In this document: positions 3,244 to 35,621 of the stretch, piece by piece | Layout: each line of letters begins with the position of its first letter | How positions within the stretch are numbered: position 1 is the stretch's first letter | The notes under the pieces: generated by a model | What the model saw: only the letters and a program-made list of their open reading frames with translations | Database searches by the model: none | Told to the model about the DNA's origin: nothing | Source of the DNA: Onishia taeanensis | GTDB taxonomy: Bacteria; Pseudomonadota; Gammaproteobacteria; Pseudomonadales; Halomonadaceae | Reading direction: 5' to 3' | Assembly (NCBI RefSeq): GCF_003268885.1 | Contig: NZ_QLSX01000014.1 | Span: 1 to 64,000 of the forward strand | DNA length: 64,000 nt | Made by a program: the position numbers and the translations under genes

Positions 3244-3280
3244 GAAGCGTCCTTTCGACCGTAAGTCGGCCGGATGAATC

Positions 3281-3386
3281 TTGAGTGAGCGCTCAAATTT
3301 TATCTTGAGTGATCGCTCAAAGCCAGTTAGCCTGAGGACACATCTACGGCAGGTAGCGTCATGTCCTGATTTGAGTGATCGCTCAA
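3281..3386. promoter_or_regulatory. Three TetR-type operator palindromes
   Basis: Three 16-bp near-perfect palindromes, TTGAGTGA(G/T)CGCTCAA, lie at 3281-3296, 3305-3320 and 3371-3386, in the gap between the divergent TetR gene and the AhpD-like gene. The first two are 24 bp apart start to start and the third is 66 bp further. The half-site TTGAGYG is typical in form of TetR operators. Binding by the adjacent repressor is inferred from position. Confidence 0.8.
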
Positions 3387-16397: not shown

Positions 16398-16679
16398 CGA
16401 AAAGCGGCTGAGCACGTTCGGACGCGATGCGCGCACGGGTCATAGATCGCGCGGCGTTGTACATGAAGCTTAGCTGTTTATTCAGCGTAGTTTATTCAGC
16501 ATAGTCGTCGTCAGGCTTCACACCCCGTCGATGGCTTGCTCCTCTCGAGAGAGCCCGCCATGATGAGTGATCCTTGCTCATGGCGATCTTCAGCCGATCT
16601 CTTCATCAGCCCAGTATCAGCCCAGTCTCCTCGCCACCCCATTCCCGATGAATCCAGTCTCTTGATCAGACCTCTCGCC

Positions 16680-17717
16680 ATGCATTCCGCTCACTCCAGC
16701 TTTTCACCTTCAAACGCGTCTTCCTCAGGCCCTGTTTCCTCAAGTTCTGTTTCCGCAAATCCGGGGCCCTCAAGTACCCTGCCTGAGCGCTTGGGTTTCC
16801 TGCTGCTGCCGCGCTTCTCGATGATGGCCTTCTTCTCGGCGGTGGAGCCGCTGCGCATCGCCAATCGCATCAGCGGGCGGCCGCTGTTCGACTGGACGCT
16901 GATCAGCGAGGACGGCGGCCCGGTGACTGCTTCCAACGGCATGACGCTGCTCGCCGACCAGTCCATCGAGGCCGTCCATCATCTGCCGACGCTTGCCGTC
17001 TGCAGTGGGTTTGATCCCGAGGCGCACCAGAGCCGCGCGATCACCCGCTGGCTTAACCGCCTGGGGCAGGGCGGCTGCGTACTCGGTGGGCTGGATACTG
17101 GCTGCTTCGTGCTGGCCGCAGCAGGTTTACTGAAAGGGGAGCGGGTGACCCTACACTGGGAGAGCCTGCCGGCATTTCGCGAGCGCTTCCCATCGATTGC
17201 CACCAGCGATGAGCTGTTCGAGCTCGGCGTGCGGCGGTTTTCCTGTGCGGGGGGCGCCGCGGCCATGGACATGGCGCTGGAAGTGATTGCCCGCCGTCAC
17301 GGCCAGGCGTTGGCTATCGACGTCTCCGAGCAGCTGATACATGAGCGCATGCGCACCCGCCGCGACCAGCAGCGCATGACCCTGGCGCGGCGCCTGGGCA
17401 CCCATCGGCGGCATCTGGTCGATGCCGTGGCGCTGATGGAGCGCCACCTGGAAACGCCGTTGACGCTTGCGGCGGTGGCCGAGCGCAGCGGTGTGTCCTC
17501 CCGCCAGCTACAACGCCTCTTCGAACAGGAACTGGGCTCGACGCCCCGGCGGTGGTACCTGCGACTGCGCCTCGAGCGCGCCCGCCAACTGCTGGCCGAG
17601 ACCGATCTGGATATCCTTTCCGTGGGGCTGGCCTGCGGCTTCACCAGCGCCTCGAGTTTCTCGCGGGCCTTTCGCCAGCACTTCGCCAAGACCCCGCGCC
17701 AGGTGCGCGAGGAATGA
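16680..17717 (+). CDS. GlxA-type AraC-family transcriptional regulator
   Basis: About 345 residues from the ATG at 16680; the frame is open back to 16536, and other ATGs at 16560/16563 are possible. After a Ser-rich low-complexity lead made by a 15-bp DNA repeat, the GATase-like sensor domain begins at RLGFLLLPRFSMMAFF, and the AraC double helix-turn-helix ends with GFTSASSFSRAFRQHFAKTP. It is closest within this window to the regulator at 34572-35621 and resembles GbdR/CdhR-type betaine/carnitine regulators. Its last 38 codons are duplicated at 18903-19019 on the other side of an inserted cargo. Confidence 0.85.
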   Translation: MHSAHSSFSPSNASSSGPVSSSSVSANPGPSSTLPERLGFLLLPRFSMMAFFSAVEPLRIANRISGRPLFDWTLISEDGGPVTASNGMTLLADQSIEAVHHLPTLAVCSGFDPEAHQSRAITRWLNRLGQGGCVLGGLDTGCFVLAAAGLLKGERVTLHWESLPAFRERFPSIATSDELFELGVRRFSCAGGAAAMDMALEVIARRHGQALAIDVSEQLIHERMRTRRDQQRMTLARRLGTHRRHLVDAVALMERHLETPLTLAAVAERSGVSSRQLQRLFEQELGSTPRRWYLRLRLERARQLLAETDLDILSVGLACGFTSASSFSRAFRQHFAKTPRQVREE

Positions 17718-17875
17718 GTGGGCTGCCCCCCTCCAGCGTCACTACCGTCGATGTGGACGAGACGATCTCTCGACGGGCTGCGTTTAGCTCTGCTTCATGT
17801 TGGAAGGTGGGTCGAGAAAATACCGGGGCTCCCGTTTTTGACTCTATGCTGTAGTCCAAAATACATAACGCTCGC
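17601..17875 (+). repeat. Left-flank repeat, copy 1
   Basis: The last 117 bp of the regulator gene plus about 155 bp beyond its stop, ending TAGTCCA...TAACGCTCGC (17866-17875). It matches 18903-19207. The coding part is about 90 percent identical by eye; the non-coding part shares blocks around GTTTAGCT and GTTGGAAGGTG and the same end sequence. Confidence 0.85.
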
Positions 17876-17922
17876 TTCAAGTGCATGGTGAAAATAAATT
17901 ACTTTGCAGGCGCTTGTTAATA
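17863..17922 (-). other. attC-like recombination site 1
   Basis: Read on the minus strand it begins TTAACAAGCGCC, overlapping the stop of the cargo gene, and ends GCGAGCGTTATG about 55 nt later. This resembles the TAACAAACGCC...GGGCGTTAT ends of Vibrio-type attC repeats. It marks the edge between the cargo and the left-flank repeat. The match to strict RYYYAAC/GTTRRRY core sites is imperfect, and folding was not computed. Confidence 0.4.
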
Positions 17923-18420
17923 ACTGACATGGTCAATACGGTCAAGCAATTTCAATACAGTTTCTGCAAAAAGCTCAAGGCTTAAGTTTAATGTCCAGGC
18001 CCTTTTTCTATTAGTGCCTTTAAGCTGGAAAGATATTTTTACATCGCTATCTAATAAATTCTTCGGGAATATTGGCTTGGTAACGCTATCGGCATGAATG
18101 ATCTTATCACATATATCCTTAATAGTTACTGGTTTGACTATTAGCTCATGATCCTCGTAATATCCGGCTACCATCGTTTCCACCGGAATGGTTATATTCT
18201 CGATTGATTCTTGGTACAGGTTTATTCTTATAGCTACAGCAAGTCTCAGTAAGTGACTTGATAACAAGCTATGCAGTATAGACTTCGTCTCTATCGTAGG
18301 ATTTGAATATGTTTCGCTACCGAAAATGGTGCTACTCGTTAAGTCTAACCCGTGACATAACAAGCATAGCCGCCTTATTTCATCAAATTCTTGCTTGTGC
18401 TTATCTAAAACATCTTCCAT
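17917..18420 (-). CDS. Unrecognised cargo protein of the accessory island
   Basis: A 167-residue protein (ATG at 18420, MEDVLDKHKQEF) coded in AT-rich DNA unlike the flanking genes. It is mostly predicted helical in its first half, with LLSSHLLRLAVAIRINLYQ as the most distinctive stretch, and then has a charged C-terminal half. I do not recognise the family. No signal peptide or membrane segment is evident. It lies alone between a conserved leader (18442 onward) and an attC-like site that overlaps its stop, exactly the layout of a gene cassette. Given the neighbouring DUF262/HEPN pair in the sister copy, a defence or toxin role is possible but unproven. Confidence 0.6.
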   Translation of the reverse strand: MEDVLDKHKQEFDEIRRLCLLCHGLDLTSSTIFGSETYSNPTIETKSILHSLLSSHLLRLAVAIRINLYQESIENITIPVETMVAGYYEDHELIVKPVTIKDICDKIIHADSVTKPIFPKNLLDSDVKISFQLKGTNRKRAWTLNLSLELFAETVLKLLDRIDHVSY

Positions 18421-18441
18421 GAGAACTCTTAAAGCTATATA

Positions 18442-18868
18442 AGGTATTGGGTTGCACGCTCTTTTATTGCTTTGAACGCGCGTGTGCATTCAAGATATTA
18501 TCTTGCACACCCTAGGGTGATCAATTATTTGATATTCATGAAACTATCCATGGTGCTGCAAGCTATGCAGGATTCGCGTGGTTGCGCAACATCCTGCGAT
18601 AGGTCACCATATGGCACGGCGACACAGGCCCAGACAATGAGCACCCTCGCCTTCCTCTACCGGCATGTAATGAACAACCACTGAAAGATACTGGTGAATT
18701 CTCATACGGAACACAACCTCGCCGGCTGTTGGTGCTGCCGTATGAAGAAGTGGTGAGTGTTGAATATGTTATTTGGCCATTGGGCGGCACGGTCATTGAG
18801 CCTGGCTGGTGACTGAGAGCGGCTCGCCCAGGCGGGGGGCGGGTTTCGAGATAGGTCTTGAGAGCCAC
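18442..18868 (-). repeat. Right-flank repeat, copy 1 (with aldehyde dehydrogenase 3' remnant)
   Basis: This gene-free stretch matches 21402-21830. Both copies, read on the minus strand, end with AATACCT next to the cargo. Both contain GTTCAA/TTGAA blocks, a shared CTATGCAGG...TCGCG segment and the string CTACTGAAAGATACTGG or its variant. Both finish in aldehyde dehydrogenase C-terminal coding sequence. It is probably a decayed duplicate of the region behind the dehydrogenase gene. Confidence 0.75.
18830..18868 (-). pseudogene. Aldehyde dehydrogenase C-terminal remnant
   Basis: Reading on the minus strand gives ALKTYLETRPPPGRA, matching the C-terminus GLDAYLETRYVTRPA of the intact dehydrogenase at 21782-23224. 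Only about 13-15 codons remain. Confidence 0.65.
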
Positions 18869-18902
18869 ACGGCTAGTATGCGTCCGCTATCTGTTTACCG
18901 GC

Positions 18903-19019
18903 ACCGATCTGGATATTCTTTCCGTGGGGCTGGCCTGCGGCTTCACCAGCGCATCGAGCTTTTCGCGCGCCTTTCGTCAGCACTTCGGCAAGACCCCGCG
19001 CCAAGTGCGAGAGGGTTGA
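18903..19019 (+). pseudogene. C-terminal remnant of the GlxA-type regulator
   Basis: 38 codons plus stop, beginning TDLDILSVGLACGF and ending TPRQVREG. They match the last 38 residues of the 16680-17717 regulator at all but two positions. No start or upstream coding remains. It is the left boundary of the second locus copy and directly follows the dehydrogenase remnant. Confidence 0.9.
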
Positions 19020-19207
19020 GTGAGATTAGACACTTCGCGTAACAATCGTCGGTGTGAGATGGCCTCTCGGCGGGGGCTGTGTTTAGCTTTGGTCCACGTT
19101 GGAAGGTGAGCCGAGGAGGGGGCAGCACTGGTCCTTCTGACTCAAGCGTGTGGTTCAAAGTGATGCCGTTGCTCTATGGATCCTAGTCCAGTATGTGTAA
19201 CGCTCGC
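18903..19207 (+). repeat. Left-flank repeat, copy 2
   Basis: Second copy of 17601-17875. It includes the regulator remnant and about 190 bp of following sequence, and it ends with the same TAGTCCA...TAACGCTCGC edge (19198-19207) next to the second cargo. Confidence 0.85.
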
Positions 19208-19571
19208 AATAAACGGCGCGAGAAATGAGCGTCCAGTGTCCCTTGCCTGCGCTGTTTAAATTTTTTTAGGTCTCCTAAAAAGCCGCTCTTGTACCCCAAG
19301 TGCTTTAATTCTTTGAATGCCCTACTATAAGCTAGTATCGTGATGCAGATAACTCTGATGGGAAAGATAACCAGTAGTATGGTGATGATTGCCATGAAAT
19401 AGCTGTATGCGACTTTAGCCAGCCAGGCAACTAAAAAACATAAGCGAGGTTGAAAGGAATAACGGCATACACCAAGGGTGATTCTCGAAGAAATAGTATG
19501 ACGATCGCGTTGATGGTAATGGCCAGTAGAAAAGTGATGCTGACATACTTGATCGGTAAAGCTAGTTGCAC
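19183..19571 (-). pseudogene. Small membrane protein, apparently frameshifted
   Basis: A GTG at 19571 opens a 46-residue hydrophobic frame (KYVSITFLLAITINAIVILF...) that stops at 19431, just after a run of six T on the minus strand (19433-19438). Shifting frame at this run continues into a second hydrophobic then basic sequence (MAIITILLVIFPIRVICI, then FKELKHLGYKSG) that stops at 19183. Together they read like one protein of about 125 residues with three membrane segments. The break could be a real mutation, a sequencing error in the homopolymer, or slippage. The family is not recognised. The end of the frame runs through attC-like site 2. Confidence 0.5.
19195..19260 (-). other. attC-like recombination site 2
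   Basis: On the minus strand it runs from TTTAAACAGCGC to GCGAGCGTTACAC, about 66 bp. Its right end is nearly identical to that of site 1, and its edge coincides with the end of left-flank repeat copy 2. The core-site match is imperfect. Confidence 0.35.
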
Positions 19572-19615
19572 AGCAGGCGATCAGCTGAATCGTTTTAATT
19601 ATTTTAAATCCAGTA

Positions 19616-19690
19616 GTTTAACGCTGGTATAACGGGCCGGCCTGTGTGGCGCAGCGGAGCAAACCGGTCCCGTTGATGCATTGGTTAAGT
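19616..19690 (-). other. attC-like recombination site 3
   Basis: This is the best of the three sites. On the minus strand it starts ACTTAAC (fits RYYYAAC) and ends GTTAAAC (fits GTTRRRY), 75 bp apart. Inside are the paired blocks AACGGGACCGG and CCGGCCCGTT, which can form the stem with a mismatch. ACTTAAC overlaps the stop codon of the HEPN gene. The core sites and paired arms are visible; recombination activity is inference. Confidence 0.55.
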
Positions 19691-20311
19691 GCGATTTGCT
19701 GCGATATTTTCAGCGGCCACATCTAAAATATCTTGATAATTTTGTAAGATAGTCCTAGATGTATTAGTCGGGTGCAACTGTACAATGAACTGCCCAACAG
19801 TTGTATTGCTCACCTGACTACCTAGCACCCTACTTGCCAATGCATCTAGTTGATGCTGAGTTGTGCTGCTCAAATGCGCAGCAGCGTTTCTAATCGTTTT
19901 AAGGTCAGCTAGCTCAGTTGTGATTGACGATATATTTGTCGAGAAAGGCTCCCCGTCCTCAAAATATAATTTTGAGAGCCGCTTCACTATCTCATGATTG
20001 GCCCAGTCAACATATTTCTGAGTGCCAATCAATATTTTCAGCGCGTGCCCCCTATCATTGGGTGTGACGAATTTATTTACGTAGGTGCCATTCGTTGAAA
20101 CTTCACCAACAAGATATTTTGCAAACGTGTCTTCGACAAATGACTCCCAGAATATAAACATCTTTAAGAAAGCTGAAGATACTATAAACTCTTTCTGGTC
20201 TTCGCTGAATATATCATTTCCACTGGGGTCTGTATCGTATGCCTTTTGAGTAATCGAGTTGATTTCAGAAACGCCTGACCTAAAGTTGGTAACAGAATCA
20301 GATAAAGACAC
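19685..20311 (-). CDS. HEPN-domain protein (RX4H RNase motif), MAE_28990/RiboL-PSP-like
   Basis: A 208-residue protein, AT-rich relative to flanking genes. An N-terminal helical part with FIFWESFVEDTFAKYL (about 52-66) is followed by the HEPN active-site motif R141-NAAA-H146, the R-x4-H signature of HEPN ribonucleases. HEPN proteins of this type are common toxins or effectors in anti-phage and toxin-antitoxin systems. It starts with GTG at 20311, 3 nt after the DUF262 stop, with GGAG inside the end of the DUF262 gene, so translation is coupled. Its stop overlaps attC-like site 3. RNA cleavage is predicted, not shown. Confidence 0.75.
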   Translation of the reverse strand: MSLSDSVTNFRSGVSEINSITQKAYDTDPSGNDIFSEDQKEFIVSSAFLKMFIFWESFVEDTFAKYLVGEVSTNGTYVNKFVTPNDRGHALKILIGTQKYVDWANHEIVKRLSKLYFEDGEPFSTNISSITTELADLKTIRNAAAHLSSTTQHQLDALASRVLGSQVSNTTVGQFIVQLHPTNTSRTILQNYQDILDVAAENIAANRT

Positions 20312-20314
20312 AGT

Positions 20315-21370
20315 TCACTCCGTCAGGACTCTAGAAATATATTCACTTCTTCGAATTCGAACGGCTTTATCTGTTGTCGCCCTGCGGCAGTCTTCAAGAA
20401 ACTGCCTTTCATCACGATTTAGCCGATCCTTCTCTTCTTCTTCGAAGATATAATCAATTTTCTCTAATCTTTGCGATGCCCTGGCATAACCTATCGACGC
20501 AATGCTCTCCCTATGAGATTCCATGTTTGGAACTCCATATTCCATATGGAATATGGACATAAAAAGGGAGTAAAAAACATGGGGTCTTCTAAACTCACGT
20601 TTCTTCAAGTTGTCGCCAAAAAGCTCTCCTATAATAAAGAGTATATTTTGGAATTTTGCTTCCAGCTCTTCTGTGTCGTAATCAAAATCCTTTTCGTAAA
20701 ACTCGTAGTACTTTTTGATCTGCTTTTTTGACTGTATTCCCTCAATCATTCCAATTATGAGGTCGGCAGCCATTTGCACATCATTCATCCTCAGGACGTT
20801 TTGCTCCGTAATGATTCGGTTTTCCGTCCAAAAAGAGTAATTCAAGTGCGCCAACCGGTCCGCTGTCGTTTTAAATGGTCCGAAGTGATTGGCGTTAATT
20901 TTTTCTTGCTCATTCAATGTTACTGCGTAGGAGTTCAGCCTACTAAAAACATCCAAAACATCGGGGTCTGACATATTGACGAGAAGGTCAACTGATATTT
21001 CATAATTTAGAATGTCGCTTTGGATGTTTTCATCAACTTCATTCAATTGGCTAAAATATAGCCCTCCGTACTCTTTGTTATGCCTCTTGCTTATTCTAAA
21101 TCCATCTTTCATAAAGGATAAAATTGTACGCAAACGTTGCTGTCCATCGACCACTTCCCTGATGGATTTTCTTGTTTGAGGGTTGAGTTTTTGTCTAATA
21201 AAAACCTTAGGTATAGGCTTGCCGCTTACGATCGTATCCATTAGATACGATCTGGCTGTATCAGTCCAAACTGATCTTCTTTGGAATTTTGGTGATAGCT
21301 CGAGCTGATCGTTCTCATGCCACTCTAGAAAGTCATTAATACTATAGGTTCTTGAGTCAAAATTTTTCAT
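20315..21370 (-). CDS. DUF262 domain protein (ParB/Srx-like NTPase fold)
   Basis: A 351-residue protein. The N-terminal DUF262 region has the PKFQRRSVW segment (about 27-35) and the hallmark VVDGQQRLRTILSF (about 73-86), seen in GmrS-type and related defence proteins, where the DGQQR motif is needed for nucleotide-dependent function. The C-terminal half is helical and charged, with no HNH/DUF1524 nuclease motif, unlike full-length GmrSD. The nuclease role may instead be supplied by the coupled HEPN gene 3 bp downstream. The ATG at 21370 follows GGAG by 8 nt. The low GC content suggests acquisition by transfer. Confidence 0.82.
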   Translation of the reverse strand: MKNFDSRTYSINDFLEWHENDQLELSPKFQRRSVWTDTARSYLMDTIVSGKPIPKVFIRQKLNPQTRKSIREVVDGQQRLRTILSFMKDGFRISKRHNKEYGGLYFSQLNEVDENIQSDILNYEISVDLLVNMSDPDVLDVFSRLNSYAVTLNEQEKINANHFGPFKTTADRLAHLNYSFWTENRIITEQNVLRMNDVQMAADLIIGMIEGIQSKKQIKKYYEFYEKDFDYDTEELEAKFQNILFIIGELFGDNLKKREFRRPHVFYSLFMSIFHMEYGVPNMESHRESIASIGYARASQRLEKIDYIFEEEEKDRLNRDERQFLEDCRRATTDKAVRIRRSEYISRVLTE

Positions 21371-21401
21371 CAAATCTCCGAATTTTTATCATTCATTTAA
21401 C

Positions 21402-21830
21402 AGGTATTAGACTGCATGCTCGCTTACTAGATTGAACACTAATGCGCGTTCAATAATGTTGTCTAGCGCGCCATCTTTTTTGCCTAGCCAATTAATAGAT
21501 ATAGAAGTATTGGTATAAAACTGCAGCCTATGCAGGGGTCGCGTGCCTGCGTGTTTTGCCGGAACACCCTGCGGTCGGTCGCCCTATGACGCGGCGACAC
21601 AAGTCTAGGGACTCAGCGCTCTTGTTCCGCTATCGGCCTGTACTTGAGCCACTACTGAAAGATACTGGCGAATTCCCTCACGCAACACAACCTCGCCGGC
21701 TTTTGCCTGACGAGGTTGTGATGTGTGCTGAATGAGCTAGGCAGAGAGGTGGCCCGGGCAGGTGCCTGAGGGCGGTTTGCCTCAGGCGGGGCGGGTGACG
21801 TAGCGGGTCTCAAGGTAGGCATCGAGGCCT
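21402..21830 (-). repeat. Right-flank repeat, copy 2 (leader and aldehyde dehydrogenase 3' end)
   Basis: Intact counterpart of 18442-18868. It covers the non-coding stretch 21402-21781 and the last codons of the dehydrogenase. Immediately after its edge toward the cargo is GTTAAAT on the minus strand (21395-21401), a GTTRRRY-type core, so this end resembles an insertion (attI-like) point. No other gene is visible in it. Confidence 0.7.
21686..21720 (-). terminator. Stem-loop after the aldehyde dehydrogenase gene
   Basis: A perfect 10-bp inverted repeat CACAACCTCG...CGAGGTTGTG with a 15-nt loop, about 60 bp beyond the dehydrogenase stop. No clear T run is present, so termination is only possible. 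In the duplicate at 18700 the right arm is decayed. Confidence 0.4.
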
Positions 21831-23224
21831 GCACGCCCGAGCTCGCGACCGATGCCGCTTCTCTTCATGCCGCCCCAGCCGAGCCCTGGTGGCGCCACCT
21901 GGTAGCTGTTGCACCAGACATTGCCGGCGGTGAGTCGGCTCGCCAGGGCTTCGGCTCGCGCGGCATCGCCTGCGACCACGGTGGCGGCCAGGCCTAAGTC
22001 GCTGTCGTTGGCGAGCGCCACCGCTTCGTCGTCGTCCTTTACGGCTCGCGCGCACAGCACCGGGCCGAAGATCTCTTCACGCCACAGGCGGCTTGTCGCG
22101 GGTACATCACGGAACACGCGGGGGGCGACGAAGTAGCCTTGGGCGGGCAGGGCTATCGCATCCGCCGTGGTGGCAACCAGCCCTTCGCCTTCGGCAATCG
22201 CCAGGTAGGCATTCACCCGCTCACGCTGGGCGGCGTTGACCAGCGGACTGAGCGTGGTGGTCGCAAGCTGGGGGTCGCCGGCACTTAGCTCGACTATGGC
22301 GGCGTTCAAGCGCTCAAAGAGCGCCTCGGCGATGCTTTGGTGCACCAGCAGTCGCGAGGTGGCCGAGCACATCTGGCCGGCGTTGTAGCAGAACCCGGCC
22401 AGCACCAGCTCACAGGCCAAGTCGAGGTCGGCGTCTTCGGTGACCACAATCGGCGACTTGCCGCCAAGCTCCAGCGACACGTTGCGGGTGCCCCGGGCGG
22501 CGGCAGCCATCACCGCTTCGCCGACGGCATTGCTGCCGGTGAAGGAGAGTTTGTCGACGCCAGGGTGGCCGGTAAGCGCCGCGCCTACGTGTTTGCCATC
22601 GCCGTGCACCAGGTTGAAGACCCCGGCCGGCAGGCCAATCGCCAGGGCGATCTCGGCCAATGCCTGTTCCGGCAGCGGCGTCACTTCAGAGGGTTTGAAG
22701 ACCACCGTGCAGCCGGCGGCCAGCGCTGGGGCGAGTTTCCAGGCGCTGCTGACCAGCGGAAAGTTCCAGGGTGTGATCAGCCCGGCCACGCCGGCCGGGT
22801 CCTGATAGCGGCGTGCGATCAGCCCGGGTTCGCCGGTGTCCACCGCTTCGCCCTGGCGAGCCTCCAGGCGGCGGGCCTCGCCGGCGTAATAGCGATAGCA
22901 GGCAATGGCATCGGACAGATCCTGCTCGGCCTCGGCACGGGGTTTGCCGTTGTTGCGGCTGGAGAGTGTCTCGAGCTCATCTCGGCGGGCCTCGAGCGCG
23001 CCGGCCAGGGCGTCGAGGTAGTCGCCGCGCGCCTTGCCGCCGATCGCCCGCCACTCAGGCAGGGCGCGACGGGCGGCGCTCACCGCGGTGTCCACGTCCT
23101 TCGCCGAGCCTTCCGTGACCTCGGCAATGACGGTCTCGCGGTAAGGGTCGGTGACCGCCAGGCGCTGATCCCCGCGACTCGCGACCCAGCGGTTGTCAAT
23201 GAAGTGGTGCATCAGTTCTTGCAT
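21782..23224 (-). CDS. Aldehyde dehydrogenase (betaine/aminoaldehyde type)
   Basis: A 480-residue NAD(P)-dependent aldehyde dehydrogenase: TPWNFPLVSSAWKLAPAL cofactor region, general base Glu in SLELGGKSP (about 255), and catalytic Cys in FCYNAGQMCSATS (about 289). It resembles betaine-aldehyde and omega-aminoaldehyde dehydrogenases. As the last gene of an operon with AruH- and AruI-like enzymes it probably oxidises the aldehyde made by the decarboxylase (4-guanidinobutanal or a trimethylammonio analogue). I choose ATG 23224, which has GGAG 8 nt upstream; ATG 23212 is an alternative. Its 3' end is the right border of the duplicated insertion locus. Confidence 0.88.
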   Translation of the reverse strand: MQELMHHFIDNRWVASRGDQRLAVTDPYRETVIAEVTEGSAKDVDTAVSAARRALPEWRAIGGKARGDYLDALAGALEARRDELETLSSRNNGKPRAEAEQDLSDAIACYRYYAGEARRLEARQGEAVDTGEPGLIARRYQDPAGVAGLITPWNFPLVSSAWKLAPALAAGCTVVFKPSEVTPLPEQALAEIALAIGLPAGVFNLVHGDGKHVGAALTGHPGVDKLSFTGSNAVGEAVMAAAARGTRNVSLELGGKSPIVVTEDADLDLACELVLAGFCYNAGQMCSATSRLLVHQSIAEALFERLNAAIVELSAGDPQLATTTLSPLVNAAQRERVNAYLAIAEGEGLVATTADAIALPAQGYFVAPRVFRDVPATSRLWREEIFGPVLCARAVKDDDEAVALANDSDLGLAATVVAGDAARAEALASRLTAGNVWCNSYQVAPPGLGWGGMKRSGIGRELGRAGLDAYLETRYVTRPA

Positions 23225-32186: not shown

Positions 32187-33191
32187 ATGAATGACTACTC
32201 AGAGGCTTGGCCGTATCCGCGTCCGGATTCGCCGCCGCTGCTCTCGCCCGAGCAGGCCGAGCAAACCCTGGACGTCTGGCTGGTGCCCAAGTTCTCGATG
32301 CTGACGCTGTTCTGCATGCTGGAGCCGCTGCGCGTCGCCAACCGTTTTGGTCGAAACCTATTTGCCTGGCGACTGCGCTCGATGGATGGCCAAGGCGTGG
32401 TGGCGAGCAACGGCGTCTGCATCGAGGTAAACGGCGATCTGGCCTCGGTGCCTGACGATGCCCACCTGATGGTGGTGTCGTCCTACGAGGCAGAGGCGGT
32501 GGTCACGGCCCGGGAGCGAGCCGTGTTGCGCCGCTTGGCGGCCCATGGTGGGTGGTTGGGCGGCTTGGATACCGCGCCCTTCATCCTGGCGCGGGCGGGG
32601 GTGCTGGAGGGCTGCCGGGTGGCGCTGCACTGGGAAAGTGTGCCGGCCTTTCGTCGCGAGTTTCCGCAGCTACGGGTCAGCCGTGAGCGCTTCGAAGCCG
32701 ATGCCACGCGACAGACGGGGGCCGGGGGCACTGCCGGCATCGATATGATGCTGGACCGTATCGCTCGCGATTATGGCCCGGCGCTAGCCGACGCCGTGGG
32801 GCGCCAGCTGGTGCACCATCGCCATGAGGCGTCGTCCGACGATGAGCAGCAGGTGCGCTATGCGGGGCTGCCGCGCAGTGTGGTCAAGAGCCTGGCGGTG
32901 ATGGAGGCCAACCTGGCCCAGGCGCTGCCGATTCCGGAGATCTGCCGGATGGTGGGACAGTCGCAGCGCCAGCTTGCGCGGCTGTTCCTGGCGCACTTTG
33001 GTGAGACGCCCAAGCAGTGCTATCTGGGCATGCGTCTGGACCGGGCGCAGCGTCTGCTCGCCGGCAGCCATTGCCGGGTCACCGAAGCGGCAATGGCCAC
33101 TGGCTTCCAGCAGCTGACGCATTTTTCCCGCGCCTATCGCGCCCGTTTCAGCGAGACGCCCAGCCAGACCGCCGCCCGGGGACCGGGCTAA
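32187..33191 (+). CDS. GlxA-type AraC-family transcriptional regulator (copy 2)
   Basis: A 334-residue protein with a GATase-like sensor domain and a C-terminal AraC double helix-turn-helix, highly similar along its length to the 1505-2533 regulator. I start at the ATG at 32187 because it reproduces the N-terminus and promoter spacing of the paralogue; a TTG at 32169 is an in-frame alternative. Neither has a convincing ribosome site. It is divergent from the dioxygenase that heads the long operon and is its likely activator, in the manner of GbdR/CdhR. Confidence 0.87.
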   Translation: MNDYSEAWPYPRPDSPPLLSPEQAEQTLDVWLVPKFSMLTLFCMLEPLRVANRFGRNLFAWRLRSMDGQGVVASNGVCIEVNGDLASVPDDAHLMVVSSYEAEAVVTARERAVLRRLAAHGGWLGGLDTAPFILARAGVLEGCRVALHWESVPAFRREFPQLRVSRERFEADATRQTGAGGTAGIDMMLDRIARDYGPALADAVGRQLVHHRHEASSDDEQQVRYAGLPRSVVKSLAVMEANLAQALPIPEICRMVGQSQRQLARLFLAHFGETPKQCYLGMRLDRAQRLLAGSHCRVTEAAMATGFQQLTHFSRAYRARFSETPSQTAARGPG

Positions 33192-34571: not shown

Positions 34572-35621
34572 CTATGCACGATTCGACAGTTCGTGATTCG
34601 AGGGTTCGTGATTCGAGAACGGACTGTTTGAAGAGGCGCCCGATGGCCGACCCCGCAGCGCGCTGGGCGTCAGCCCGTGATGGCGACGAAAGGCCCGGGT
34701 AAAGCTTGAGGCCGAGCCGAAGCCGCAGGCCAGCGCGATCTCCATGACGCTGTGGCGTGTCTCCCGCAGCAGCCGGTGGGCATGATCCAGCCGGCGTGTC
34801 ATATAGATGCGCTGTGGCGAGGTGCCCAGCTGGCGCACGAAGAGCCGCTCCAGCCGCCGCCAGGAAAGCCCAAGCTCGGCGGCGAGCTCGGCGATGCCGA
34901 GCGGCGTATCCAGGTTGGCTTCCATCAGGGCGATGGCGCGGGTCAGCAGCGGGTCTTCGGGCATCAGCGGGTCGCGCCAGACCGGGTCGCGCTGGCGGCT
35001 GGCCGGTCGACGCCCCTGGTCGTGAAGCAGTTGGTCGCACACCCGCTCGGCCAGGTCGTCGCCATGGCGGCGGCGAATCAAATCGAGGCTCATGTCGATG
35101 GCCGAGCTGCCACCGGCGCAGGAGAAGCCCTCGGGCGTCACCTCGTAGAGCGATTCCACGGCGTCGACTCGGGGAAAGCGGGCCCGGAACTCAGGCAGAG
35201 ACTCCCAGTGCAGGGTCACGGTCTGATCATCGAGCAGGCCGGCGGCGGCCAGCACCACGCAGCCGGTATCCATGCCGCCCAGCACGCAGCCTTGTGTAGC
35301 GCGCTCGCGCAGCCAGGCAATCAGCGTGTCGTCGATGGCATCGTCGGGGGCGAAGCTCGAGCAGACGGCCAGGCTCGGGGTCAGAGGGGCATCCTCGAGG
35401 CTATGGTCGGCGTCGAGCGACATGCCGTTGGAGGCCGTTACCGGCCGACCGTCGCGGCTGACTACCTCCCAGTGGAAGAGCGGGCGTCCACTGATGCGGT
35501 TGGCGATGCGCAGCGGCTCGATGGCGGAAAAGAAGGCCACCATGGCGAAGCGCGGCAGCAGCAGGAAGCCGATGGATTCGGGGCTTTGCGCGCTAGAGGT
35601 GAGTCGCATGGGGCAGGTCAT
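34572..35621 (-). CDS. GlxA-type AraC-family regulator (CdhR-like)
   Basis: A 349-residue protein: GATase-like domain opening SIGFLLLPRFAMVAFFSAIEPLRIANRISGR, and C-terminal AraC helix-turn-helix with FGSASSFTRAFRRHHGLTPSAL. The neighbours are gamma-butyrobetaine hydroxylase (79 bp downstream on the same strand) and the carnitine operon, so it is the likely carnitine-responsive activator. The last 15-20 residues (SNSPFSNHEPSNHELSNRA) are encoded by a 15-bp DNA repeat and are probably disposable. The start among in-frame ATGs (35621, 35609) is uncertain. Confidence 0.85.
   Translation of the reverse strand: MTCPMRLTSSAQSPESIGFLLLPRFAMVAFFSAIEPLRIANRISGRPLFHWEVVSRDGRPVTASNGMSLDADHSLEDAPLTPSLAVCSSFAPDDAIDDTLIAWLRERATQGCVLGGMDTGCVVLAAAGLLDDQTVTLHWESLPEFRARFPRVDAVESLYEVTPEGFSCAGGSSAIDMSLDLIRRRHGDDLAERVCDQLLHDQGRRPASRQRDPVWRDPLMPEDPLLTRAIALMEANLDTPLGIAELAAELGLSWRRLERLFVRQLGTSPQRIYMTRRLDHAHRLLRETRHSVMEIALACGFGSASSFTRAFRRHHGLTPSALRGRPSGASSNSPFSNHEPSNHELSNRA
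34578..34622. repeat. 15-bp repeat encoding the regulator tail
   Basis: Three 15-bp units related to GATTCGAGGGTTCGT fall at the 3' end of the 34572 regulator gene and supply its last codons. Confidence 0.7.

Follow-up and report, generated by a model that had tools for sequence, protein, structure and literature searches.

A stack of two decayed chromosomal integrons between a regulator gene and a dehydrogenase gene in Onishia taeanensis

Between a GlxA-type regulator gene and an aldehyde dehydrogenase gene, Onishia taeanensis carries two decayed sedentary (chromosomal) integrons, stacked one after the other. They lie in the window analysed here, a stretch of 64,000 nucleotides (positions 1 to 64,000 of contig NZ_QLSX01000014.1, assembly GCF_003268885.1) from a 30-contig draft genome, referred to as G000; all coordinates are those of the whole window. 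From right to left, each unit consists of a relic of the integrase gene intI, an attI site, one or more cassettes and a left constant segment. The features read from the sequence are attI homology, intI relics with a common deletion, one attC site, a strand bias of the cassettes and, in relatives, a variable content. We consider an integron origin of both units almost certain, and an integron origin with these parts is very probably the best explanation of the locus.

Repeat structure of the interval

Within the window, blastn aligned 17578-17816 with 18880-19115 (80% over 241 columns, E 3e-55) and 18556-18731 with 21521-21705 (73%, E 2e-26), with order and orientation conserved in both pairs. 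Gapped alignment carried the left-flank match as far as 17875/19207 and the right-flank match from ~18442/21402 to the dehydrogenase 3' end, and the divergence between the two copies is 14-27%. No third copy of the unit was found in the window by blastn, the other matches there being paralogous regulators. The first-pass annotation of this DNA had described a unit running from the regulator 3' end through flank and cargo to the dehydrogenase 3' end, present twice in tandem, and had suggested an alignment of the two copies; this alignment gave the second match of the flanks, and the tandem arrangement is confirmed. The regulator 3' end (17601-17717) does recur at 18903-19019, with the remnant beginning slightly earlier, at ~18880, and the dehydrogenase C-terminus can be read at ~18830-18868 as ...KTYLETR... 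in one frame (the intact gene has ...AYLETRYVTRPA). The two remnants abut at ~18868-18880. The cargo was also correctly described, a 167-aa protein in copy 1 and a small open reading frame (ORF) with HEPN and DUF262 genes in copy 2; these genes all lie on the minus strand. The flanks had been taken as non-coding, but the right one has features of its own, an attI site and an intI relic. The G+C content is 37-44% over the main cargo genes versus 60-68% in the flanking genes. From left to right, the features of the locus are:

16536-17717, plus strand: GlxA-type AraC regulator (DJ-1/PfpI and HTH_18, Pfam), intact, left anchor; orthologues 93-98% identical in five other Onishia genomes
17718-17866, no strand: left constant segment, copy 1, from the regulator 3' flank to the array end TAACGCTCGC (alignment)
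17917-18420, minus strand: cassette gene 1, 167 aa; relative in G589 (L215) behind an attC
18445-18590, minus strand: attI-like site 1, decayed, CTG|TT core lost (homology)
18596-18765, plus strand: intI relic 1, ~codons 60-119 of 321 (tblastn E 1e-5, blastn E 4e-10)
18820-18868, minus strand: aldehyde dehydrogenase 3' remnant (alignment)
18880-19019, plus strand: regulator 3' remnant, 86% identical to the intact gene (repeat match)
19020-19201, no strand: left constant segment, copy 2 (alignment)
19183-19395, minus strand: cassette gene 2b, 70-aa ORF with a hydrophobic N-terminus (ORF call)
19616-19690, minus strand: attC separating cassettes 2a and 2b (48.5 in each of two scans)
19685-20311, minus strand: HEPN protein, 208 aa, RNAAAH motif at residue 141 (profile and motif)
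20315-21373, minus strand: DUF262/GmrSD_N protein, 352 aa, DGQQR motif at residue 76 (Pfam, motif)
21395-21563, minus strand: attI-like site 2, cassette boundary CTG|TT at ~21398 (homology)
21556-21723, plus strand: intI relic 2, ~codons 58-117 (tblastn E 2.6e-4, blastn E 4e-10)
21782-23224, minus strand: aldehyde dehydrogenase, intact, right anchor (Pfam E 8e-154)

An attI region and intI relics in the right flank

A search of the genus found the right-flank element in 6 of 7 Onishia genomes, and a further match in G000 (72% over ~190 bp) lies upstream of a DUF302 gene. Below, the interval under study is L117 in G005, L118 in G003 and, by coordinates, L037 in G006 (As1101), L038 in G004 (O. 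taeanensis BH539) and L039 in G001 (Onishia niordana). Alignment of 21 copies of the element in cargo orientation revealed a hairpin core common to all. Nineteen of them end in CTGTT, the exceptions being window copy 1 and L126, and the copies diverge after this motif, save five with one common continuation. The strand-exchange point of integron integrases is G|TTRRRY. In G006, the element lies directly upstream of an intact intI; used as a query against the window, this attI-intI region matched attI at 18456-18588 and 21396-21563 and intI at 18596-18760 (63.5%) and 21556-21698 (65%; each E 4e-10). At the family level, the attI region was detected at E<=0.001 in 174 of 275 genomes, with two first-look candidates scored per genome, and IntI relatives at E<=1e-40 in 102 of the 275. 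By a hand count among the matches listed, the attI match lies 24-37 bp upstream of at least 30 intI matches. Because of this position, both in G006 and in the family, we assign the right-flank element on sequence grounds to the attI/intI-upstream region of a Halomonadaceae integron, which by homology places an attI beside the first cassette.

A dispersed promoter- or MITE-like (miniature inverted-repeat transposable element) repeat unrelated to integrons would account for the occurrence of the ~60-nt hairpin core at many places in Onishia, several of them with no detected intI relic. It is very improbable as an explanation of the right flank, because the element in its full form corresponds to the intI-upstream region, is followed at several sites by 5' fragments of intI and forms the starting point of same-strand arrays bearing attC. 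These points refute a dispersed repeat for the full-length copies and are less certain for the hairpin-only copies. Readings of the right flank as a promoter cassette, a MITE or a structured RNA were dropped once the element was seen upstream of an intact intI; Rfam gave no match for it.

As for the integrase gene, tblastn aligned IntI residues 71-119 (in two pieces) at relic 1 and residues 45-117 at relic 2. The local alignment scores of the two relics were 44 and 46, whereas 300 shuffles of each reached no more than 20 and 22; the reverse strands of the relics scored 11 and 16. The same deletion of ~224 nt, from the attI side to ~intI codon 59, is present in both window copies and in O. niordana (L039), with boundaries that agree in the alignment to within a few nucleotides. 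This common deletion indicates that the two stacked units descend from one relic that already had it, and not from two insertions. Beside the attI sites there are only the relics at 18596-18765 and 21556-21723 and no functional integrase gene. The 30-contig draft of G000 contained no IntI over the TIGR02249 curated cut-off and none at E<=1e-40, and the cut-off was exceeded in two of the seven Onishia genomes, G004 and G006. At the interval itself, attI/intI traces were found in G000, G005, BH539, As1101 and O. niordana and were not detected in G003. The locus thus carries an attI/intI remnant at a chromosomal site shared by relatives, as a decayed sedentary integron does.

Cassettes and attC sites

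The cargoes behave as gene cassettes. In the window, in G005 (L117) and in L037, L038 and L039, the cargo genes read lie on the minus strand and point away from attI. In a first attC scan, we covered the cassette strand of 14 regions, and the null, 204 kb shuffled from five of them, gave 0.005 hits per kb at score 45. Sites at or above this score were found in six regions: the window (48.5), L170 (51.5), L171 (62.5/46.5), L166 (55.0), L168 (51.0) and L174 (48.5/49.5). A relaxed rescan of eight regions, with no hit at 45 in a 245-kb null, kept the window site and added L173 2173-2119 (50.5), which adjoins a CBASS gene pair, and L215 2025-2129 (50.0). The attC at 19616-19690 is thus the site found at a cassette end in the window. 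An earlier strict fold scan gave three window candidates, two of them one spurious place on both strands, and placed the 19616-19690 site on the opposite strand; it was replaced by the scan with a shuffle null.

Pfam identified GmrSD_N (DUF262) in the 352-aa protein (E 2e-20) and RiboL-PSP-HEPN in the 208-aa protein (E 7e-6), the latter just under the cut-off (26.6 versus 28.4 bits). It gave no match for the 167-aa and 70-aa proteins, and further family searches likewise gave none for the 70-aa ORF. The predicted structure of the 167-aa protein (mean pLDDT 42.8) was not used. A relative of this protein, 51% identical, is found in another genus (G589, L215), 11 nt behind the attC scoring 50.0. 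The HEPN and DUF262 pair recurs at ~71% DNA identity in G466 (L214) and G495 (L213). Across the order, relatives of the HEPN protein were found in four of 390 genomes and of the 167-aa protein in two, the window's genome counted in each. A plasmid search gave two distant HEPN relatives and none of the 167-aa protein.

The same interval in other Onishia genomes

Five further members of the genus have between zero and three regulator-3' units in this interval. In G005, labelled the same species, the flanks are 96% and 97.5% identical to those of the window and the cargo is different. The order there is regulator, broken-gene cassette, intI-relic trace (3250-3324), regulator remnant, SDR (short-chain dehydrogenase/reductase) and GST (glutathione S-transferase) genes, attI core, intI-relic trace and dehydrogenase; the SDR and GST identities were assigned by eye. 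BH539 (L038) has three regulator 3' ends and, in order, a cargo of a helix-turn-helix + RelE/ParE-type gene pair and an EamA gene, then an intact version of the G005 cassette gene, then SDR and GST, with relic traces only beside the dehydrogenase. One unit is present in As1101 (L037; SDR and GST, dehydrogenase mostly deleted) and one in O. niordana (L039; a 187-aa gene, no dehydrogenase hit). In G003 (L118) there is no unit and the regulator flank adjoins a transporter gene; the first 79 nt of copy 1 of the left constant segment are also present in this genome. G002, 88% complete, has no close regulator orthologue (best hit 42%). At 77 loci outside the genus, some of them truncated by contig ends, a further partial 3' end of the regulator was never seen at more than 50% identity; what did match were complete paralogues or, at the ends of loci, N-terminal pieces. 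Within that set, therefore, Onishia alone shows a stack at this address. The interval had been proposed to be a variable hotspot. It does vary: four related genomes have one to three units with other cargo, and G003 has none. The part of that proposal that fell short is the nature of the unit, not recognised as a decayed integron. Seen as a decayed integron, the unit gives the cargo variation a cause of a familiar kind, cassette capture.

Several observations weigh against reading the locus as an integron stack. The attI of copy 1 has no CTG|TT core, and in BH539 the attI/intI traces occur in one of three units only. A single attC passes in the window, the array-end sites near 17866 and 19202 falling below threshold. 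Eight of the 14 regions of the first scan had no attC at or above 45 (L117, L038, L039, L119, L172, L173, L167 and L169), the first three being the same interval, and the relaxed rescan found none at this score in L117, L038, L039, L213 and L214. A 44.5 hit in L038 falls inside a coding gene. Behind the G466 pair, an attC-like sequence was seen by eye only, with no report from either scan, and beside the G495 pair the scans found nothing attC-like on the gene strand.

Origin of the stack

We propose that the cassettes would have been captured at attI by an integron integrase, supplied by this locus before the death of its intI or by another integron in the same cell; such a second source is conceivable since two of seven Onishia genomes still encode an integrase. 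A divergent allele of the same locus would then have been imported from a relative, and homologous or illegitimate recombination rather than the integrase would have linked it to the resident allele. The joining would have kept both cassette sets and left a piece of each flanking gene at the joint. We give this joining of alleles an even chance of being the cause of the stack. Three different breakpoints occur at the unit joints: dehydrogenase ~codon -13 to regulator ~codon -46 in the window, the dehydrogenase stop region to regulator ~-13 in BH539, and the intI-relic side to regulator ~-30 in G005, the last with the same neighbours in BH539. Since the breakpoints differ, no recombinase was found among the proteins searched and pieces of the flanking genes lie inside the stack, recombination independent of a fixed site fits better, and an integron integrase would not be expected to carry such pieces along. 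These three joints also disfavour the site-specific insertion of mobile elements at the regulator 3' end, each leaving a copy of that end as islands do at tRNA or gene ends. Such insertions would explain why regulator 3' ends recur at the unit borders in G000, G005 and BH539 with the intact gene leftmost in all, but neither a fixed breakpoint nor an element's own recombinase was found (Pfam, six main interval proteins; smaller ORFs were not searched), and we regard them as highly unlikely. An assembly artefact or chance similarity, in favour of which nothing was found, has a negligible probability, given copies that differ by 14-27%, similar stacks in G005 (on two contigs), BH539 and G176, and E-values down to 3e-55.

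An old tandem duplication of the strain's own decayed integron, followed by cassette turnover by an integrase acting in trans, is a credible though rather doubtful alternative. It agrees with the ~224-nt deletion common to both copies, with the intact IntI of G004 and G006 and with the regulator remnant, whose distance from the various Onishia regulators is roughly the same: 86% identity to the resident gene and to those of G005 and BH539, 84% to As1101, 81% to O. niordana and 80% to G003. These identities count against an imported allele. None of the donors sampled is closer to the remnant than the resident gene is, so a foreign donor is no more than possible, and the values are not decisive for dating the duplication. 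On the other hand, a duplication needs an integrase working in trans on relic attI sites, and a second stack, in a genome of another genus (G176, L216), fits it less well. There an intI relic/attI, cassettes and a HIT gene follow one another twice, HIT gene A closing the first series and HIT gene B the second (HIT identified by eye). Copy B is nearer to the copy of another species at the same address in G187 (93.5%) than to copy A (92.6%), and A is 90.8% identical to the G187 copy; the G187 contig ends before any second HIT copy would appear. As for the HIT identities, their differences, another point against an imported allele, are of 1-3 points only over 565 nt. A second stack with a duplicated host gene supports a recurrent process. 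Among 36 genomes chosen for several attI hits each, three (G176, G187 and G139) have same-strand attI pairs within 6 kb, and in the 6 kb read in G139 the attI region alone is repeated, with no host gene. We tentatively suggest that a dead integron locus would grow without integrase, as recombination among relatives links its divergent alleles end to end again and again. Of the initial proposal of two alleles joined head to tail in a locus growing by accretion, the accretion remains plausible, and joining is favoured over a diverged old tandem duplication by a modest margin only.

Probable defence-type cargo

Integrons can carry phage-defence cassettes. In the window, the DUF262 protein matches PADLOC NsnA (4.6e-30), and its HEPN partner has no PADLOC match. 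The RNAAAH motif at residue 141 of the HEPN protein has the form Rx4-6H, defined for HEPN RNases in PMC3710099, and an RNase role is predicted. The pair is most likely a phage-defence or toxin-type cassette as judged by these signatures. A defence role as such seems somewhat probable, the grounds being only family membership and intact motifs. Ten proteins in all were compared with PADLOC, and seven had a match at E<=0.01: one of four window proteins and all six others, the latter picked for their defence-like look, so that no enrichment is claimed. The matches include a CBASS cyclase with a two-transmembrane (2TM) effector (L173, window genome), Lamassu LmuA/LmuB (L172, G003) and two TIR-type genes (L170, G005). 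Among less selected cargo proteins, one of ten had a match, a methyltransferase (mad2, 2e-13).

Other attI-like sites

The window's genome has at least six attI-like sites, the two described here and C5:177559, C5:184871, C10:2792 and C1:519937, the last a hairpin core only. At one of the other attI sites (L173:593-2173, G000:C10), the CBASS cyclase and SLATT_4 2TM effector are flanked by attC sites scoring 50.5 and 43.5; next to the same neighbour gene, a site in G005 (L204) carries solute-binding ORFs and one in G004 (L206) carries different genes. The LmuA/LmuB genes of G003 (L172:1680-5402) lie downstream of an attI-like site, with no attC at or above 45. Directly downstream of attI in G005:C1 (L204:3671-6356) there are three consecutive 265-aa ORFs whose first 60 residues are identical, one of them matching SBP_bac_11; this triple ORF is a cassette repeated in tandem, a rare arrangement among class 1 integrons (28/1,685, PMC12901181). 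A site beside a DUF2309-like gene (by eye) is common to Onishia (L119) and to G176 and G187, as expected of old, vertically kept chromosomal integrons.

A second attI-like subfamily (L166-L169, L134-L140) shares only the ~60-nt hairpin core, and no intI relic was detected in the four of its regions tested (L166-L169); it may represent another integron class. One sequence (GAACTAAACCGCTTCGCGG...) starts at the attI CTG|TT in five of the 21 aligned copies (L128, L133, L135, L137 and L144) and is also present in L176, at a contig end; it is perhaps an insertion sequence targeting attI/attC.

Other features of the window

Part of the left constant segment (17788-17866) resembles non-coding DNA at another place in the genome (L120:6447-6543), beside an IS30-like transposase gene (by eye). 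On the strength of this match, 72% over 97 bp, an IS30-type insertion sequence end was considered for this segment and not adopted. The window has four GlxA-type regulators (1592-2506, 16800-17714, 32280-33170 and 34653-35564), and the other three are 41-54% identical to the one at the stack. There is a perfect 24-nt palindrome inside the DUF262 gene (20534-20557). A scan for promoter-like (7 versus 6.5 expected) and terminator-like sites (3 versus 3.9 expected) gave chance levels.

Relation to known systems and significance

Like the sedentary chromosomal integrons of Vibrio and Xanthomonas, the locus has attI next to intI, same-strand cassettes with attC and a conserved location. Unlike them, its intI is a relic, its arrays hold one and three genes, and the relic is stacked together with pieces of both flanking genes. 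The intI of Xanthomonas has ilvD as its neighbour in most cases, and some lineages have truncated or lost the gene (PMC12444791). Clusters of attC sites lacking integron-integrases (CALIN) similarly have cassettes and attC without a working intI nearby; here, in contrast, attI and an intI fossil persist and one attC passes, the array-end sites being degenerate, whereas CALIN are defined by at least two attC without integrase, the default of IntegronFinder 2. A further likeness is to the attI-type cassettes of class 1 and 2 integrons, described with a mention of attG sites (PMC12901181), in that cassettes lie beside attI-type sequences outside their normal place. Unlike those, several of the sites described here carry intI 5' relics and are therefore remains of whole platforms, not new insertion points.

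Chromosomal integrons, truncated intI and CALIN are well described (PMC12444791, PMC9024848), as are integron gain and loss in Treponema (PMC3607928). Hypersaline CALIN are reported in PMC7923331, with no mention of Halomonas, and PMC3710099 mentions a HEPN domain structure associated with integrons (3jrt). Among the matches listed in the open literature, the HEPN and DUF262 pair is not described as a cassette, nor are integron relics stacked together with duplicated flanks from the host, most subscription papers being outside its reach. Literature searches gave almost nothing on integrons in Halomonadaceae.

The locus bears on the fate of chromosomal integrons after the death of their integrase. 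The attI/intI fossils persist at fixed addresses on the chromosome, retain cassettes that are not the same in two strains under one species label, and can be stacked, which suggests that integron platforms can accumulate even once their own integrase is dead. If divergent alleles are indeed joined repeatedly, a second, homology-driven layer of cassette accumulation would continue after intI loss, stacking cassette sets, some with defence genes, together with fragments or copies of flanking housekeeping genes. Such loci would tend to escape tools that require two attC or an IntI they can recognise. The attI fossil is a usable landmark for accessory genes in Halomonadaceae, because CBASS, Lamassu and TIR genes, chosen by eye, were met at such sites in Onishia.

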